Below are positions 42,308 through 49,145 of a DNA stretch of 64,000 nt, one piece after another (position 1 is the stretch's first letter; the number at the start of each line of letters is the position of its first letter). The position numbers were made by a program, and so were the translations under genes. The notes below the pieces were generated by a model. That model searched no databases, was not told where the DNA came from, and worked only from the letters and a program-made list of their open reading frames with translations. The stretch is from Blastocatellia bacterium (GTDB lineage Bacteria; Acidobacteriota; Blastocatellia; Chloracidobacteriales; Chloracidobacteriaceae). Location of the stretch: positions 1-64,000 of the forward strand of contig JAIBAN010000018.1 in NCBI GenBank assembly GCA_019695185.1, written 5' to 3'.

Positions 42308-42496
42308 CAGAATTCGTTGAAAATTGCCAAGAGATATGCCATTTGATAGGAATCAGGAACAAGCATCAAGACTAACTCAACCGCGCCTGTAACTTCAAGA
42401 TAACACTCTTTCGAACTAGGGGGGACTTTGCCACAAGCGCTGGTGGTTGCATTGGTTGCAATCAAAGCGAAATTGCATTGTGAGGAGAAGTTCTCA

Positions 42497-44716
42497 ATGA
42501 CACCCATGACCCTGTTGCAGAAAAAAATCGGCCCATTCGGGTTAATCAAGGAAATCGGTAACGGAACCCTGGGGGAAACCTGGGTGGCCCGCAAAGACAA
42601 CACCATGGCCGATTGCATGGTCAAGATAATTCCGGTTTCCAAACAGTCCGAGGAAGCCTTGCTGCTCGAAGCCAAATACTGGCTTGATTTGGGAATTCAC
42701 CCCAACATCCTTCCGATTGCCGAAGTCACGGCGGTTGATGCAAAAATCATTGTGGTTCTGGAAGCGACTCCGGCCACCACTTTGGAACGCTGGCTTAAAA
42801 TCAATCACGGGAAATCCCCATCCATTAAAACGGCGGTTCAGATTGTTTCCGACATCCTGAAAGGGCTGGAACATCTGCATACCAACGGGATTTTGCACGC
42901 CGACCTAAAACCATCGAATGTCCTCCTGGACGGGCTGGTGCCCCGGTTGACGGATTATGGAATTGTGCATGTGCTGAAGCCGGATGTGAGCACCCTGAAA
43001 TTACCGCACCTGTGGTATGCCTCACCTGAAGCACTCAGAGGGCGCTTTACCCGCAAGGCCGACCTTTGGGCGGCAGCCGTGTTGTTATATCAAATGCTGG
43101 CCGGAAGGCTGCCGTTCCCGCATACCGAACCCGAAGAAGTCCGCTGGGCAATTGCCACTCAGATTCCAGACCCTTTGCCGATGGTGGTGCCGCAGTCGCT
43201 CCATGAATTTCTGGAAAAAGCCCTTTCAGTTGAAATGGGGAATTTTTTTCCCACGGCGGCGGAAATGCGGGCTGAGTTGCTGAAATGCTTTTGGGGGCTC
43301 CAAACGACTGAAGACAAAACCACGAGCCCGAAAATGGCGGATATCCCGGCTCTGGCCCCGGTGCGGGAAACTGCTCCGGACCCAGCCGCCAAGCCACATA
43401 TTACGGAACCTTTTTCCAGTGCGGCAGTGTTGCCTTTTGAAAAAGTCGTCGAGGTAGAAGCCGAAATCACGGCCAAGGTTCCGGTTCAGTCCACTACCGT
43501 GCCCTTGGTGCGGGCGGTCGTGACAGAACCGCTCGCCACTGGCACTGAGGCTTTGTCTGCTGGAACGGAACCGTTGCATGGGACAACCGAACATTTACCG
43601 GAAGGGGGAACCGAAAATCTTTTACCAGGAACCAGTTCCTTGACTGCTTCGACTGAGCCATTACATACACTGACTGGTCATCTGCCAAAATCCAGTGAAA
43701 CAGTGAAAACCCCGGTCGTGGAACCCACTCAGCCGGTACCAGCTCAGGAAGGACCTCCATCTGTGCCAGGTTTCGGGGCCGGTTCGGCTTTTTCCACCTA
43801 CGCTGAACCACAACCGCGCCGGCTTGGCTTTCTACTCCTTCCCGTGGCCTTGATTTTATTGGTTGTGGGTGGTGTGGCCGGGTTTTTATGGTGGCGTTCG
43901 ACCCGTCCGGCCCCCGCCGTTGCCAAACAACCTCCAGTGGTAGCCAAAACATTACCCCCAGCCCCCAAACCAGTTGAACCCAATCCGGCCCCCACTTCCA
44001 CGAGCCCATCCCCATCCCCTCCAGTTGCCACAACCGGCCCGAAAACCGTGGTGGCCAAGGATGGTTCCGGTCAATTCCGCTCCATCAACGAAGCGTTGGC
44101 CCAGGCCCAGCCCGGTGCGGTGATTGTCATTAAACCCGGTACCTATGAGGAAAATCTGGTTCTGAACAAGCAGGTGACCATCCAGGGCGAGGGAAATCGG
44201 GATGACATTGTGATTACCAACCACAGTGGGGCCGTTTTGGAAATGGCAACCGAAAAGGCCGAAATCCGGGGGGTCACCCTGGATGGAGCCGCCGGTTCCA
44301 GCCGCCGGCAGGCGTTCACAGTCTTTTTAGCCAAGGGGCAACTCTTGCTCGACCAATGCACCATTTCATCGGATTCGCAGGCTTGCGTGGCCATCCAAGG
44401 GCCGGGAACCAATCCAACTTTGCGGCGGTGCCTGATTTTTGACGGAAGTTCAAGCGGCATCGGCATGTGGGACCGCTCCAAAGCCACCATTGAGGATTGT
44501 GAAATCAAAGGCAATCAATTTGCCGGGATTGTGATTACCAAGGGAGCCTCACCAACCATCAAAAACTGTAAAATCAATGCCAATCGGCTCCAGGGCATTA
44601 AAGTTGGCGAGGGTGGCTCGGCCAATGTGGAAAATTGTGATTTAAGCAATAATCGCAAGGGTGCCTGGGCGATTGACCCTGGCTGCCAGGTCACCAAGAA
44701 CGGAAATCGGGAATAG
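42497..44716 (+). CDS. Membrane Ser/Thr protein kinase with beta-helix domain
   Basis: The protein has 739 residues from the ATG at 42497, after GAGGAGAAG; the open frame starts at 42428. The N-terminal kinase domain (about 10-270) has EIGNGTLGETWVARK (P-loop), Lys in CMVKII, GILHADLKPSNVLL (HAD for HRD, catalytic Asp kept), LTDYGIVH (DYG for DFG) and WYASPEALRG. A low-complexity linker (about 340-425) repeats TEPLH/TEHLP-like units. One transmembrane helix lies at 442-466, then a Pro/Ser-rich spacer. A right-handed parallel beta-helix of the pectinesterase/NosD type forms the C-terminus (about 515-739, beginning VVAKDGSGQFRSINEALAQA). The layout suggests an extracytoplasmic glycan-sensing module controlling an internal kinase. 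Hanks-type kinases usually have PASTA or other repeats outside. Confidence 0.92.
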   Translation: MTPMTLLQKKIGPFGLIKEIGNGTLGETWVARKDNTMADCMVKIIPVSKQSEEALLLEAKYWLDLGIHPNILPIAEVTAVDAKIIVVLEATPATTLERWLKINHGKSPSIKTAVQIVSDILKGLEHLHTNGILHADLKPSNVLLDGLVPRLTDYGIVHVLKPDVSTLKLPHLWYASPEALRGRFTRKADLWAAAVLLYQMLAGRLPFPHTEPEEVRWAIATQIPDPLPMVVPQSLHEFLEKALSVEMGNFFPTAAEMRAELLKCFWGLQTTEDKTTSPKMADIPALAPVRETAPDPAAKPHITEPFSSAAVLPFEKVVEVEAEITAKVPVQSTTVPLVRAVVTEPLATGTEALSAGTEPLHGTTEHLPEGGTENLLPGTSSLTASTEPLHTLTGHLPKSSETVKTPVVEPTQPVPAQEGPPSVPGFGAGSAFSTYAEPQPRRLGFLLLPVALILLVVGGVAGFLWWRSTRPAPAVAKQPPVVAKTLPPAPKPVEPNPAPTSTSPSPSPPVATTGPKTVVAKDGSGQFRSINEALAQAQPGAVIVIKPGTYEENLVLNKQVTIQGEGNRDDIVITNHSGAVLEMATEKAEIRGVTLDGAAGSSRRQAFTVFLAKGQLLLDQCTISSDSQACVAIQGPGTNPTLRRCLIFDGSSSGIGMWDRSKATIEDCEIKGNQFAGIVITKGASPTIKNCKINANRLQGIKVGEGGSANVENCDLSNNRKGAWAIDPGCQVTKNGNRE

Positions 44717-44722
44717 GGAAAA

Positions 44723-44862
44723 TAGGGTCCAGGGTCCAGGGTTCAGGGTTCAGGGTCTGGGGTCTTTTGAATGGACAATGGGCAATTACAATCAGTTCAA
44801 AACCCTTTCTTTTTCTGGTCTTCGAAAACCCTGAACCCTGAACCCTGAACCCTGAACCCTAT
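44723..44862. repeat. Inverted GGGTTCA heptads between convergent genes
   Basis: The left arm (44724-44762) has five AGGGTCC/AGGGTTC units, and the right arm (44828-44860) has nearly five CCCTGAA units, its reverse complement. The gap between holds ~65 bases of unique sequence. The right arm runs into the TAG stop of the anti-sigma-like gene. A T-tract (44862-44867) lies on the + strand beyond the right arm. It could act as a two-way terminator. Confidence 0.88.
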
Positions 44863-45923
44863 TTTTTGATGACATAGGGCAAATAGCGGACCCCTTTTTT
44901 TCCGTTCGTCCATTCCTCACACACTACCATTCCCTGCATTTCATTTTCGTCCAGGTGACTGTTAGGCGTTTTCTCAATCCGCAGGACAGAACCGTTCCAA
45001 AACCGACTGCCGACTTTCAGGAAGAATTTGGCTTTTCCTTCCTTGAGGGTAACCAGGGCCTGCAATCCATCGGATTTTTCAAACATACCGATGACGCGTA
45101 CTTCGTCAATCAAGTAGGGTTCACTGGTTTCAGGCAAGGCCGGGCCGGGAAACTCTTTGAGGGGGCGCTTGGCTTTCCACTGCTGAATCCGGCTGGTCCG
45201 GGGAGGCGGAGTTGCATCAGCAGGCTGGTTTTGGGCGGGGGAAAATCCATGCGTATTGGAAAAAGGGTCGTCTGCGGGTGGCAGCCCTTTGGCTCCCGGT
45301 GGTTCTGCCCGTTCGGTGGGTTCTGGAAAAGGAAGCTCCAGAAACGGGTCGGTTGTTTGGTTCCGGTTGGTTGAAGGTTTGGCAGGTTTGGCAAGAACCG
45401 CTTTTTCCGGAACCGGGGCCGGGGTTTCCCTGGTTCCGTTGAGGTGGAAGGTGGTGTAAAACCAACGGGAACCCAAAACCAGTGTGGAACCACTGATAAC
45501 AAAAACCAATATTCCGGCAGCCAGGACCGTCAGGGCCAAACGCAAACGGGGCTGGCGCGAAAAAAACCAACGGGTCAAACGGGTTCGAAGCGGTGGTTGG
45601 GAGTTTGCCAGCCCGGTCACCACAGGATTGGGGGATGCTTGCCGCGAAGTTTCAAAATAGGCGTGCAGGGCCTCCGAAACGGCCAGTTTTCGTTCCAAGG
45701 CCGGGTCCATGCGCACCCGTTGCCGTAACTGGTTTTGTAGGGCAGGTGTCAACTCACCTCCGGCAAACTGGTCCAGCAGGTCCTCCTCCAGGGATTCCAG
45801 CAGGGCGAAAAGTTCCGCATCCTCCAACAAACGGGCCTCCAGTGCATCCCGTTCGGCTGTGGGAAGTTCCCCTTTCAGATAGGCAGTTAATTGGGCTTCG
45901 AGGGAATGGTTGGTTTCCGGCAT
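44859..45923 (-). CDS. Membrane anti-sigma-like protein with PilP-like C-terminal domain
   Basis: The protein has 354 residues. The N-terminal ~95 residues are helical and acidic (LTAYLKGELPTAERDALEARLLEDAELFALL), like zinc-finger-free anti-sigma domains. A transmembrane helix lies at about 131-156, followed by a Pro/Thr-rich periplasmic linker. The C-terminal ~85 residues (about 270-354) are a small beta-domain: VRVIGMFEKSDGLQALV, then FFLKVGSRFWNGSVLRIEK. It resembles PilP-type domains and is clearly related to the C-terminus of the secreted protein at 46719-47264. The gene follows the ECF sigma gene after 3 bases, so it is very likely its anti-sigma factor. The stop codon TAG is continuous with heptad repeats. 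Confidence 0.85.
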   Translation of the reverse strand: MPETNHSLEAQLTAYLKGELPTAERDALEARLLEDAELFALLESLEEDLLDQFAGGELTPALQNQLRQRVRMDPALERKLAVSEALHAYFETSRQASPNPVVTGLANSQPPLRTRLTRWFFSRQPRLRLALTVLAAGILVFVISGSTLVLGSRWFYTTFHLNGTRETPAPVPEKAVLAKPAKPSTNRNQTTDPFLELPFPEPTERAEPPGAKGLPPADDPFSNTHGFSPAQNQPADATPPPRTSRIQQWKAKRPLKEFPGPALPETSEPYLIDEVRVIGMFEKSDGLQALVTLKEGKAKFFLKVGSRFWNGSVLRIEKTPNSHLDENEMQGMVVCEEWTNGKKGVRYLPYVIKK

Positions 45924-45926
45924 AGG

Positions 45927-46556
45927 TTATTTCCGCCGTTCAGCAATATTGCGTACAGTAAGGCACCCATTGATGCAAGTTTCAAGCTTTTCCCGAATCC
46001 GGTGAATGCGCAACCGCAGGGAACTCATGGGGATTCCCAGGTCTGCCGCCAGCTTTTCACGGGTGGCAATCCGTTCCCGGAGGGCTCCCTGGTGATAAGT
46101 AATGAACAACTCCCGTGATTCAGGCGAAAGTTTTTGTAAACAGGTTTCCAGGCATTCCAGTCGTCTTTCCTTGGTCTGTTGTTCCTCGATTTTCTCAATT
46201 TCCTGGATTGGATTGGTGGCCGGCGGTTGAAAAATTGGTCGGTCGGCCAGCCCCTCGACGTTGCGTTCCTGGCTTTTCCAATATTCCCGGAGCACGTTCC
46301 GGGCCACTCCCTGGATGTAGGTGAACGGATTTTCCGACTCAATCCGGACACCTTCAGCCAGTCTCCGGGCCACCCGGAACAGCGTTTCATCGGCCACTTC
46401 CTCCGCGCCGGGGCAACCCTGTAACAACAACAGTTTCCGCAGCCTTCCCCGTAGTTGTTCAAACACAATCCCGGCCTGCTCCCGGTCTGGATGGAGCCAG
46501 AACAGAAACTGGTCAAACACTTCCTGCGAAAGTTCAAAAGTTGGCTTGACTGCCAT
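45927..46556 (-). CDS. ECF-type RNA polymerase sigma factor
   Basis: This 209-residue sigma-70-family protein has a region 2 around residues 35-105 (FRVARRLAEGVRIESENPFTYIQGVARNVLREYWKS). Region 4 spans about 135-195 (LSPESRELFITYHQGALRERIATREKLAADLGIPMSSLRLRIHRIREKLETC). No region 3 is evident, so it is ECF-like. It is co-transcribed with the anti-sigma-like gene, whose start is 3 bases downstream. It is divergent from the small secreted protein gene at 46719, which shares a domain with the anti-sigma protein and may be its regulon member or partner. The start ATG at 46556 has only a weak AAGG upstream. Confidence 0.93.
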   Translation of the reverse strand: MAVKPTFELSQEVFDQFLFWLHPDREQAGIVFEQLRGRLRKLLLLQGCPGAEEVADETLFRVARRLAEGVRIESENPFTYIQGVARNVLREYWKSQERNVEGLADRPIFQPPATNPIQEIEKIEEQQTKERRLECLETCLQKLSPESRELFITYHQGALRERIATREKLAADLGIPMSSLRLRIHRIREKLETCINGCLTVRNIAERRK

Positions 46557-46609
46557 GCAAGAGAATCAACCTTTGGTTAAAGGGGCCGGGTACAATGAAA
46601 TTGGCTTGT

Positions 46610-46629
46610 TTGGTGCGAGCCTGCACCAA
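46610..46629. promoter_or_regulatory. Inverted repeat in the sigma/secreted-protein divergent gap
   Basis: TTGGTGC (46610-46616) and GCACCAA (46623-46629) form a perfect 7-bp inverted repeat with a 6-base spacer. It lies in the 162-bp region between the divergent sigma and secreted-protein genes, so one bound regulator could affect both. Confidence 0.45.
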
Positions 46630-46718
46630 TTGAAAACAATTCAAAAAAACGCGAAATACTTTCCGAATTCTGCCACTGAGCGCCCAACAAACCAATTTTG
46701 TTCGTGGAGGAATTCCCT

Positions 46719-47264
46719 ATGAAACGTTTTCAGCTTGTGACAGTGGCAGTTTTTTTTCTTTCGGTCTTTGTCTTTCCATTGTTGCTTGGTGCCCAGACAC
46801 CTGAACAACCACATTTTCGCGCAGTTGAAAAAGACCCATTTCGGCGGTCTGAGGAAGAGCGCAAAACCAAGCCCGAATTTACCCCTTTGGGATACCCTGA
46901 TTTTATTCAACGCGAAGCCGATTGGCGCAAAAAACGGAAAACCGCCCGTGATGCCGGCCAATCAGGACCAGCAGAAGCTGAAAAGTTTCTAGTCAGTGAA
47001 ATCGAGAAAGTGTCCGGATTGGTCCAAACACCCAAGGGGATTGCCGTATTGGTGAAAATGTCCAAAGCCCCTGGAATGCTGGTGGTCCAGGAAGGGACCA
47101 CCTTTTACAATGGTTCCCTGGTTCGGATTGAGAAAGTCAAACTTCAGGAAGCCGACGGAAAGCAGGTAATCGGGTTGGTTACCTGCAAGGAAGTGGAAAT
47201 CAATACCTACGACCGGAAGGAGATTCGGTCCCTGGACCGGGTGTTTGAAGTAAAAACCAGGTAA
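46719..47264 (+). CDS. Small secreted protein with PilP-like domain
   Basis: The protein has 181 residues from the ATG at 46719, after GTGGAGGAA. A signal peptide (MKRFQLVTVAVFFLSVFVFP, ending LLGAQ) precedes a charged linker. A C-terminal beta-domain (about 95-181) follows: VSGLVQTPKGIAVLV, then GTTFYNGSLVRIEKVKL and EVEINTYDRKE. This pattern (GLV-x-GxxAVV-xxG-xxYxNGxVxxI) is that of PilP-type domains, and the same domain ends the neighbouring anti-sigma-like protein. PilP proteins link inner and outer membrane parts of type IV pili, but no pilus genes are here, so a sensing or envelope role is just as possible. Confidence 0.75.
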   Translation: MKRFQLVTVAVFFLSVFVFPLLLGAQTPEQPHFRAVEKDPFRRSEEERKTKPEFTPLGYPDFIQREADWRKKRKTARDAGQSGPAEAEKFLVSEIEKVSGLVQTPKGIAVLVKMSKAPGMLVVQEGTTFYNGSLVRIEKVKLQEADGKQVIGLVTCKEVEINTYDRKEIRSLDRVFEVKTR

Positions 47265-47267
47265 CAC

Positions 47268-47385
47268 CATTTGCGATTTGCGATTTGCAATTTGCAATTT
47301 GCCAGAAAAAGCGCTCAGTTTGATTGAACAAAACGACGAGCGCAATTTCAGGCAATTCCAAATGGCAAATGGCAAATCGCAAATG
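47268..47385. repeat. Inverted TTTGCGA/TTTGCAA heptads between convergent genes
   Basis: The left arm (47268-47303) has five units ATTTGCG/ATTTGCA; the right arm (47352-47385) has the reverse complement. CATTTGCGATTTGC (47268-47281) pairs perfectly with GCAAATCGCAAATG (47372-47385). A short T-run follows on the plus strand. The design is the same as in other convergent gaps but the heptad sequence is unrelated. Confidence 0.88.
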
Positions 47386-47388
47386 CTT

Positions 47389-48180
47389 TTACTTGCCGGT
47401 GAAATTCGGTTTCCGTTTTTCGACAAAGGCGGCAATGCCTTCGAGGAAATCGTGCGAGCCGCCAAGTTTCATCTGAGTTTCCAGTTCAAGCTGGAGTTGG
47501 GCTTCAAGTGTGTTGGTGTAGCTGGCTTTGAGCAATTGCTTGGCATAACCCATGGCACCGGTCGGAGCTTTGGCCAAACGGCGGGCCAATCCTTCAACCG
47601 TACTGGCAAACTCGGCATCTTCCACCACCTGATGAACAATCCCCACCTGCAAGGCTTCATCGGTCTGGATGATACGACCGGTCAATATCATTTCCGTGGC
47701 CCGGCTCCAGCCCACCACCCGTGGCAACAGATAGGTGCCGCCACCATCCGGAATCAAGCCGATATTGATAAATGCCTGAGTGAAAGTGGAGCTTTTGGCG
47801 GCCACCCGGATATCACAGGCCAAGGCGAAGTTGAAGGCGATTCCGGCACAGGGTCCATTGATGGCAGCCACCACCGGTTTGGGCATTTCACCCAACATGG
47901 TGGTTACGCCATTTAAGGTGCCAATCAGTTGGGTAACCAGGTCGGCTGAACTTTGACTGGCTGATTTAAGCATCCCTTTAATATCGCCGCCGGAGGAAAA
48001 CGCCCTTCCCGCTCCGGTGAGGACGATCACGCGCACGGCCTCATCGTTGCGCAACTGTGTCAGAGCCTCAACCAACTCTTCTCCGATGTGTTTATTGATG
48101 GAATTGAGTGAATCAGGACGATTGAGGGTCAGCCGGGCCACCCCTTCGTTGATGTCGAGCAAAATGTTATCGTAAGCCAC
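47389..48180 (-). CDS. Enoyl-CoA hydratase/isomerase family protein
   Basis: The protein has 263 residues from a GTG at 48180, chosen because AAAGGAGA lies 7 bases upstream; an in-frame ATG at 48219 lacks such a site. It is a crotonase-fold enzyme hydrating trans-2-enoyl-CoA in beta-oxidation. LNRPDSLNSIN and RAFSSGGDIKGM form the CoA/oxyanion regions, and KPVVAAINGPCAGIAFNFALACDIRVA is the second oxyanion loop. The first catalytic Glu of crotonase is replaced in GPCAGIAF, and the second lies near FINIGLIPDGGGTYLLPR (Asp for Glu). Isomerase-type chemistry is therefore possible. No palindrome copy lies upstream. Confidence 0.9.
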   Translation of the reverse strand: MAYDNILLDINEGVARLTLNRPDSLNSINKHIGEELVEALTQLRNDEAVRVIVLTGAGRAFSSGGDIKGMLKSASQSSADLVTQLIGTLNGVTTMLGEMPKPVVAAINGPCAGIAFNFALACDIRVAAKSSTFTQAFINIGLIPDGGGTYLLPRVVGWSRATEMILTGRIIQTDEALQVGIVHQVVEDAEFASTVEGLARRLAKAPTGAMGYAKQLLKASYTNTLEAQLQLELETQMKLGGSHDFLEGIAAFVEKRKPNFTGK

Positions 48181-48293
48181 GCTGAAATCTCCTTTGTTTT
48201 TTTGACCAAAATCGGCCACTTGGTTAGTATGGCAAGTGCTGGATTTTTCGTTTTGGCAGTTGAAATTTTTCCCTACTTCCAGGAGAGGCCGAA

Positions 48294-49145
48294 ATGATTT
48301 CGCACGATAGCAGGAACCCCCGTCCGGACCAACCGGACCGTGTCAGAATTCTGCAATTTACCGACACCCACCTTTTGGCCCGTGAAGACGGCAGATTGTT
48401 GGGGATGAACACCTTGCAATCGTTTCAATCGGTTTTGGAACTGGCCCAAAAACATCCCTGGATTCCGGATGTCGTGTTGGCCACCGGGGATTTAACCCAG
48501 GACCATACGCCCACGGCTTATGGACGGGTCCGGGAGCAATTTCAAACCTTTTCCCAAAATGTTGGCAAATCCGATTTGCAGGTTTATTGGCTGGCCGGAA
48601 ACCACGATGATATGAGCGTTATGCTGGAGCACCTTCCCGGAGGTCCCATGCAATCGTTTCATTCCTTTCAATGCGGCAACTGGAATGTGATTCTGCTCGA
48701 CACCTCGATTCCCGGTCAGGTTGAAGGAAAACTCGAACCGGCGGAGTTGGCCCGATTGGATGAAACCTTGGCAGCCTTTCCCCACCACCATGCGCTGGTT
48801 TGTACCCACCATAATCCACTGCCCACCCACAACGAATGGATGGGGGAAATTGGCCTGCTCAATGCGACTGACTATTTTTCCGTGCTGGACCGCCATCCCC
48901 AGGTCCGGATTTCCCTTTGTGGGCACGTTCATCAGGAATTCCGGCAGGTTCGTAAAGATGTCACTTTTATCAGCTCACCTTCCACCTGTTTTCAGTTCAA
49001 ACCCCACACCATCAAATTTGCCATTGACGAAATCGGGCCGGGCTACCGCTGGTTCGAACTGATGGATGACGGCACTTTTGCCACCGGAGTCCTCCGCGCC
49101 GAGTTTAAGAACTGGGATTATAAGCCCTCGCCAGGGGGATACTGA
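48294..49145 (+). CDS. cpdA: 3',5'-cyclic-AMP phosphodiesterase CpdA-type
   Basis: This 283-residue class III calcineurin-like metallophosphoesterase starts at the ATG at 48294 after CAGGAGAGG. Metal ligands are in the usual order: TDTHL (D, H), VVLATGDLTQD, WLAGNHDD, VCTHHNP and LCGHVHQEF. Length and motifs match CpdA, which hydrolyses cAMP; other calcineurin-like phosphodiesterases cannot be excluded. It is cytoplasmic, with no signal peptide. The fatty-acid and glyoxylate-shunt neighbours are often cAMP-controlled in bacteria, but no CRP gene is seen here. Confidence 0.88.
   Translation: MISHDSRNPRPDQPDRVRILQFTDTHLLAREDGRLLGMNTLQSFQSVLELAQKHPWIPDVVLATGDLTQDHTPTAYGRVREQFQTFSQNVGKSDLQVYWLAGNHDDMSVMLEHLPGGPMQSFHSFQCGNWNVILLDTSIPGQVEGKLEPAELARLDETLAAFPHHHALVCTHHNPLPTHNEWMGEIGLLNATDYFSVLDRHPQVRISLCGHVHQEFRQVRKDVTFISSPSTCFQFKPHTIKFAIDEIGPGYRWFELMDDGTFATGVLRAEFKNWDYKPSPGGY

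Follow-up and report, generated by a model that had tools for sequence, protein, structure and literature searches.

An ECF sigma factor flanked by two PilP-type proteins, one of them a predicted membrane anti-sigma factor, in a relative of Chloracidobacterium

The window, by which we mean the whole 64,000-nucleotide stretch analyzed, comes from a bacterium related to Chloracidobacterium and contains 324 ORFs. In it, the gene of an ECF sigma factor (P0003) is followed by that of P0001, and the gene of P0002, a protein with a hydrophobic N-terminus, is divergent from both. The arrangement (Table 1) agrees with the original prediction, in which P0001 and P0002 flank the sigma factor. P0003 exceeds the curated cut-off (42.9 bits) of TIGR02937, the ECF superfamily model, while its 57.5 bits against TIGR02989 are under the cut-off of that model. 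Judging by its position, its N-terminal homology and its single hydrophobic segment, P0001 is a membrane anti-sigma factor. Its N-terminal part is homologous to proteins encoded directly after sigma genes elsewhere in the same genome, and a hydrophobic peak at about residues 125-153 corresponds to one transmembrane segment, preceded by five K/R and no D/E and followed by three K/R and two D/E. This segment is joined to the C-terminal module by a linker in which 23 of 106 residues are prolines. The zinc-ligand motif of zf-HC2, found in zinc-binding anti-sigma factors, is HxxxCxxC. P0001 was rejected as a member of that group, since it reaches 17.4 bits against zf-HC2 (below 22.2) and its sole Cys is residue 335. 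A scan of P0001 for FecR domains gave no match either.

Table 1. Coordinates of the genes, the PilP module and the inverted repeat in the window
Feature	Coordinates	Strand	Remarks
ECF sigma factor P0003, 209 aa	45927..46556	-	TIGR02937, 47.3 bits
Membrane anti-sigma factor P0001 (predicted), 354 aa	44859..45923	-	begins 3 bases past the P0003 stop
PilP module in P0001, residues 213-354, DPF at 219-221	44862..45287	-	operon-PilP profile and AlphaFold model
PilP-like protein P0002, secreted or N-terminally anchored, 181 aa, DPF at 39-41	46719..47264	+	operon-PilP profile and model
Inverted-repeat arm 1, divergent gap	46598..46616	+	16 of 19 bases pair with arm 2
Inverted-repeat arm 2, divergent gap	46680..46698	-	16 of 19 bases pair with arm 1

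The gene adjoining that of the anti-sigma factor (42428-44716) encodes a Ser/Thr protein kinase whose C-terminal domain is a right-handed beta-helix. A dispersed heptamer element, (CCCTGAA)n, is found as an inverted pair at 44721-44862, abutting the anti-sigma stop codon; its 24-base unit has 386 + 323 matches in the genome against 0 in the reversed control. Another element of short repeats (AATTTGC / GCAAATT type), likewise in inverted arrangement, lies 3' of the P0002 gene (47265-47390).

The inverted repeat predicted in the divergent gap was recovered, with 63 bases between the 19-base arms; when the gap was dinucleotide-shuffled 150 times, as many pairs were obtained once. Each arm reads toward one of the two divergent genes, and this layout would suit twin promoters or operators. 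A regulon defined by the motif was rejected, since the genome contains 24 matches with up to 3 mismatches against 23 in the reversed control, showing no enrichment. The only exact copies in the genome are the two arms, and for this reason no pil gene could be tied to the sigma factor; inspection by eye of the regions preceding pilM and the sister sigma genes showed no copy. No RNA structure was evident in the gap (z -0.33, both strands), and the Rfam matches in 44700-48300 are far under the gathering score and fall on a simple repeat.

P0001 and P0002 had been proposed to share a PilP-like domain in their C-terminal ~85 residues. BLASTP aligns them with 29% identity over 117 aa (E 6e-15), and the common stretch proved to be longer, covering residues 215-342 of P0001. 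A profile was built from 12 PilPs encoded in pil operons, with P0001 and P0002 excluded, and searched against the 324 ORFs of the window. It retrieved only P0002 (E 1.4e-33) and P0001 (E 9.3e-27, over that same stretch), with little change when the PilP of the same genome was removed from the profile (E 1e-31 and 1.9e-25, respectively). The match spans more than the beta-domain, including the DPF motif, the W/R helix region and the C-terminal domain, that is, nearly the whole mature PilP. In P0001, nearly all of mature PilP, with the DPF region, is thus placed behind the transmembrane helix and the proline-rich linker. Neither protein matches the Pfam PilP family (PF04351); the operon PilP of this genome is also below its gathering score (13.1 vs 25.6 bits). 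The profile, the homology to this operon PilP and the folds of the models establish that the domain common to both proteins is PilP, and the PilP-like label therefore holds.

AlphaFold models were produced for P0001 213-354 and P0002 25-181 from five-row alignments, with mean pLDDT of 72.9 and 72.1, respectively. The fold evidence is partly dependent on the sequence evidence, because these alignments contain PilPs. In Foldseek searches against the PDB, the top nine matches of the P0001 model are PilP chains (E 1.2e-3 to 3.8e-2), counting 3jc8_Pa, titled only as pilus machine, which we take to be PilP. The P0002 model has one PilP at E 1.3e-2 with noise beneath, and these E-values are modest, with no match of either model reaching 0.001. 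With VIA-align, the P0001 model aligned with PilP chains at Z 9.5 (2y4y_B, rmsd 1.9, 72 aligned), 9.2, 9.0, 8.9 and 7.9, followed by GspC 3oss_C (Z 7.5), 4av2_M (7.4) and LspC (5.5), the first unrelated chain having Z 4.1. For the P0002 model, three PilP chains reached Z 8.2 (rmsd 2.4-3.5, 74-87 aligned), against 3.9 for the first unrelated chain. Both domains are therefore modeled with the PilP fold and not with different folds. PilP is found by fold comparison alone: PDB searches by sequence, with P0002 alone and with profile A4, retrieved no PilP.

When P0001 or P0002 was used to search its own genome, one further strong copy was found (C34). This gene sits between pilO and pilQ within a pilM-N-O-P-Q operon, the products of pilM, pilN, pilO and pilQ pass their Pfam cut-offs, and we therefore identify it as pilP. 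The window genes are located away from this operon and not between pilO and pilQ. The operon PilP is nearer to each window protein (72.5 and 66.8 bits) than these are to each other (41.5-44 bits). With the P0001 domain it shares 34% identity over 141 aligned positions, rising to 43% in the beta1-beta2 hairpin; both this hairpin and the FWNGS stretch show good conservation. In P0002, one residue is inserted in the first strand of the hairpin, the putative site of PilQ binding. The own PilQ contains an STN-type stretch (E 9.3e-6) whose 25.8 bits are below the Pfam cut-off of 28.4. A second secretin of the genome (C112; L209:2-1990), with a long Asn/Gln-rich C-terminal stretch, is encoded beside a pilin-like protein.

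The presence of the fusion in one genome only could be taken as a sign of misassembly or of chance similarity behind the shared domain. This we reject as having almost no probability: the 354-aa frame is open, with no stops, inside a 92-kb contig, the profile E-values exclude chance, and the P0001 domain is not a chimera of the own pilP, because only 34% of the 141 aligned positions are identical.

A weaker fourth PilP copy of the genome (C81) is a lone paralogue. Lone secreted PilP paralogues lacking the DPF motif also occur in other members of the order, and the one at L174:6030-6803 is close to a T2SSE-type (PilT-like) ATPase and to another ECF/zf-HC2 pair. In phylogenetic analysis, both window domains group with the operon PilPs of the order (96/92), apart from the lone paralogues; the row G001_T2like, present in the first tree, was left out of the second for its long branch. 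The branch of the P0001 domain is long (2.48 changes per column), the grouping of P0001 with the own PilP has support of 35/0, and holding P0001 and P0002 together as sisters gives a p-AU of 0.161. It could be that P0002 is a spare PilP paralogue with a structural role of its own, independent of the sigma pair, its adjacency being a leftover of duplication. Duplication of PilP is common in this lineage, with pilP present in tandem within the pil operons of the relatives G003 and G011 (L075:7586-8906, L076:7451-8642) and the lone paralogue in several genomes, and the tree does not establish P0001 and P0002 as sisters. Against it count the divergent arrangement, whose gap contains a significant inverted repeat, and the coincidence that the adjoining of two separate PilP-type genes away from the pil operon would represent. 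We consider this a real possibility, but lean against it.

In the class, 162 genomes including the present one were surveyed, and the domain was matched in 129 (E up to 1e-10), the operon PilP being widespread. All 9 frames of at least 300 aa from outside the window were fetched and correspond to operon PilPs or pil fusions. Among these 162 genomes, searched at that cut-off, the anti-sigma/PilP fusion was seen in the present one only, and no ortholog of P0001 with a PilP domain was found; searches of 57 relatives with P0002 and P0001 did not find the fusion either. Of 396 genomes drawn across the phylum, 87 gave a match with E no higher than 1e-5. At 29 loci (L178-L206; 21 long frames outside the class and 8 further ones), the domain ORF is always beside pilO and pilQ. 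GTDB r220 contigs, searched with one narrow peptide pattern, gave 22 stretches, 3 of them confirmed loci, and no fusion, which is a weak negative. In the literature on anti-sigma factors with PilP or PilQ, we found no anti-sigma factor carrying a PilP module. Fusions of another kind were also observed: PilP-PilQ fusions in two other genomes of the class (L211:2258-4996, 913 aa; L212:225-3146, 974 aa), and single frames in the sister family that join PilO-, PilP- and secretin-like parts (L161:6255-8177, 641 aa; L213:218-2173, 652 aa).

Sisters of P0003 are found in the same genome at C199 (two), C146 and C72, with 32-41% identity and an anti-sigma-like frame behind each, the one at C72 being short (183 aa). 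They share with the window pair a homologous sigma factor and a homologous N-terminal region of the anti-sigma factor, whereas PilP is found only in P0001: no sister pair in the genome has a PilP domain or a PilP-like neighbor. By reading of the sequences, the three full-length sister anti-sigma factors contain a stretch resembling a coiled coil, and their C-terminal domain is not PilP but another one; in two of them, Pfam scans revealed nothing beyond a weak zf-HC2. Since the sister anti-sigma factors carry other sensor domains, the sensor position has been exchanged between paralogues. The closest sigma factor outside this genome is in G003 (47% identity), with no anti-sigma match behind it; the sequence there reads as a CheB-like gene. 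One anti-sigma factor of G003 seems, also by reading, to have TPR-like repeats.

Several published studies describe what PilP binds. In Neisseria, its C-terminal domain binds the N0 domain of PilQ via the beta1-beta2 hairpin, as in GspC-GspD (PMC3441751), while in Pseudomonas the N-terminal region of mature PilP binds PilNO (PMC5805733). Two-hybrid assays in Myxococcus pair PilP with PilO and with PilQ, the latter contact mapped to the Secretin_N region (PMC3724824). The N0/STN fold is common to secretins and to the signaling domains of TonB-dependent transducers, and in FoxA/FoxR the docking of an STN-type domain shields the anti-sigma factor FoxR from proteolysis (PMC11637429). P0001 retains both PilP regions, the N-terminal one that binds PilNO in Pseudomonas and the C-terminal one that binds PilQ N0 in Neisseria.

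We suggest that this ECF sigma/transmembrane anti-sigma pair senses through a mature PilP module recruited from the alignment complex of the type IV pilus. In the periplasm, it would dock at the sites of PilP, namely the STN-type N0 domain of PilQ and PilN/PilO, and the occupancy of these sites would decide whether the anti-sigma factor is kept or cleaved and, with it, whether the sigma factor is held or free to act on its presumed target genes. The direction of signaling is proposed by analogy with FoxA/FoxR, docking most likely protecting the anti-sigma factor. P0002, devoid of the sigma-binding part, would bind the same sites as a competitor or feedback element, and its gene may share control through the inverted repeat. 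Competition of the secreted copy for an envelope ligand was already part of the original prediction; we infer that this ligand can now be named as PilQ N0 and/or PilN/PilO. That a PilP-sensor anti-sigma factor couples the state of the pilus machine to the ECF sigma factor, with P0002 as competitor or feedback, is our best explanation, and we hold it as evenly balanced between right and wrong. It is favored by the PilP profile matches, the own PilP as nearest relative, the fold matches led by PilP and GspC, the retention of both PilP regions in P0001 with a hairpin above the overall identity, the PilP-PilQ fusions (L211, L212), the FoxR precedent, the swapped sensors of the sisters and the STN stretch of the own PilQ. 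Against it count the single genome, the long branch, the hairpin insertion in P0002 and the absence of a promoter link to pil genes.

Because the P0001 domain is on a long branch, its binding may have changed. The recruited module could now bind another partner, such as the second secretin, a small ligand or a TonB-dependent receptor contacted at its STN domain, the pilus then going unreported. The long branch, the existence of the second secretin and the missing promoter link to pil genes would fit such a change, but relative to the own PilP the fold has been well preserved, as have the hairpin and the FWNGS stretch, and the sequence groups with the PilPs of pil operons and not with the lone paralogues. 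We regard this alternative as unlikely.

The window proteins resemble known PilPs (PF04351; 2y4y, 2lc4, 2ivw) in the fold, the DPF region, the linker and the C-terminal beta-domain, and they are homologous to the pil-operon PilPs of their genome and class. They differ in that their genes are outside the pil operon, in that the P0001 module is behind an anti-sigma domain and a transmembrane helix, and in having no lipobox cysteine, which is also absent from the N-terminal region of the own PilP. The FecI/FecR/FecA systems (e.g. FoxI/FoxR/FoxA) also combine an ECF sigma factor with a transmembrane anti-sigma factor, and by analogy the binding partner of the periplasmic domain of P0001 would be an outer-membrane protein with an STN/N0-type domain. 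However, the sensor of P0001 is PilP and not the STN-like C-terminal domain of FecR, and the proposed partner is the pilus secretin instead of a TonB-dependent receptor; no gene for such a receptor was found among the five flanking genes scanned. The HR domain of GspC, from type II secretion, is similar in fold (3oss_C, Z 7.5) and in following a transmembrane helix and a linker, and it binds the secretin N0. Unlike P0001, GspC has no sigma-binding domain and is a structural part of the secretion machine.

A more specific reading, which we put forward tentatively and think somewhat improbable, is that the locus would be a dedicated transcriptional gauge: the anti-sigma factor would pose as PilP, the ECF sigma factor would read the occupancy or strain of PilQ-PilP-PilNO, and a soluble PilP decoy would tune the threshold. 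If so, this would be cell-surface signaling via the pilus secretin and not via a TonB-dependent receptor. Little is understood of how bacteria register, in their transcription, whether type IV pili are being assembled or used. Should PilQ or PilNO be the docking site of the module, this locus would be a test of feedback from the envelope-spanning pilus complex on gene expression via an ECF sigma factor.
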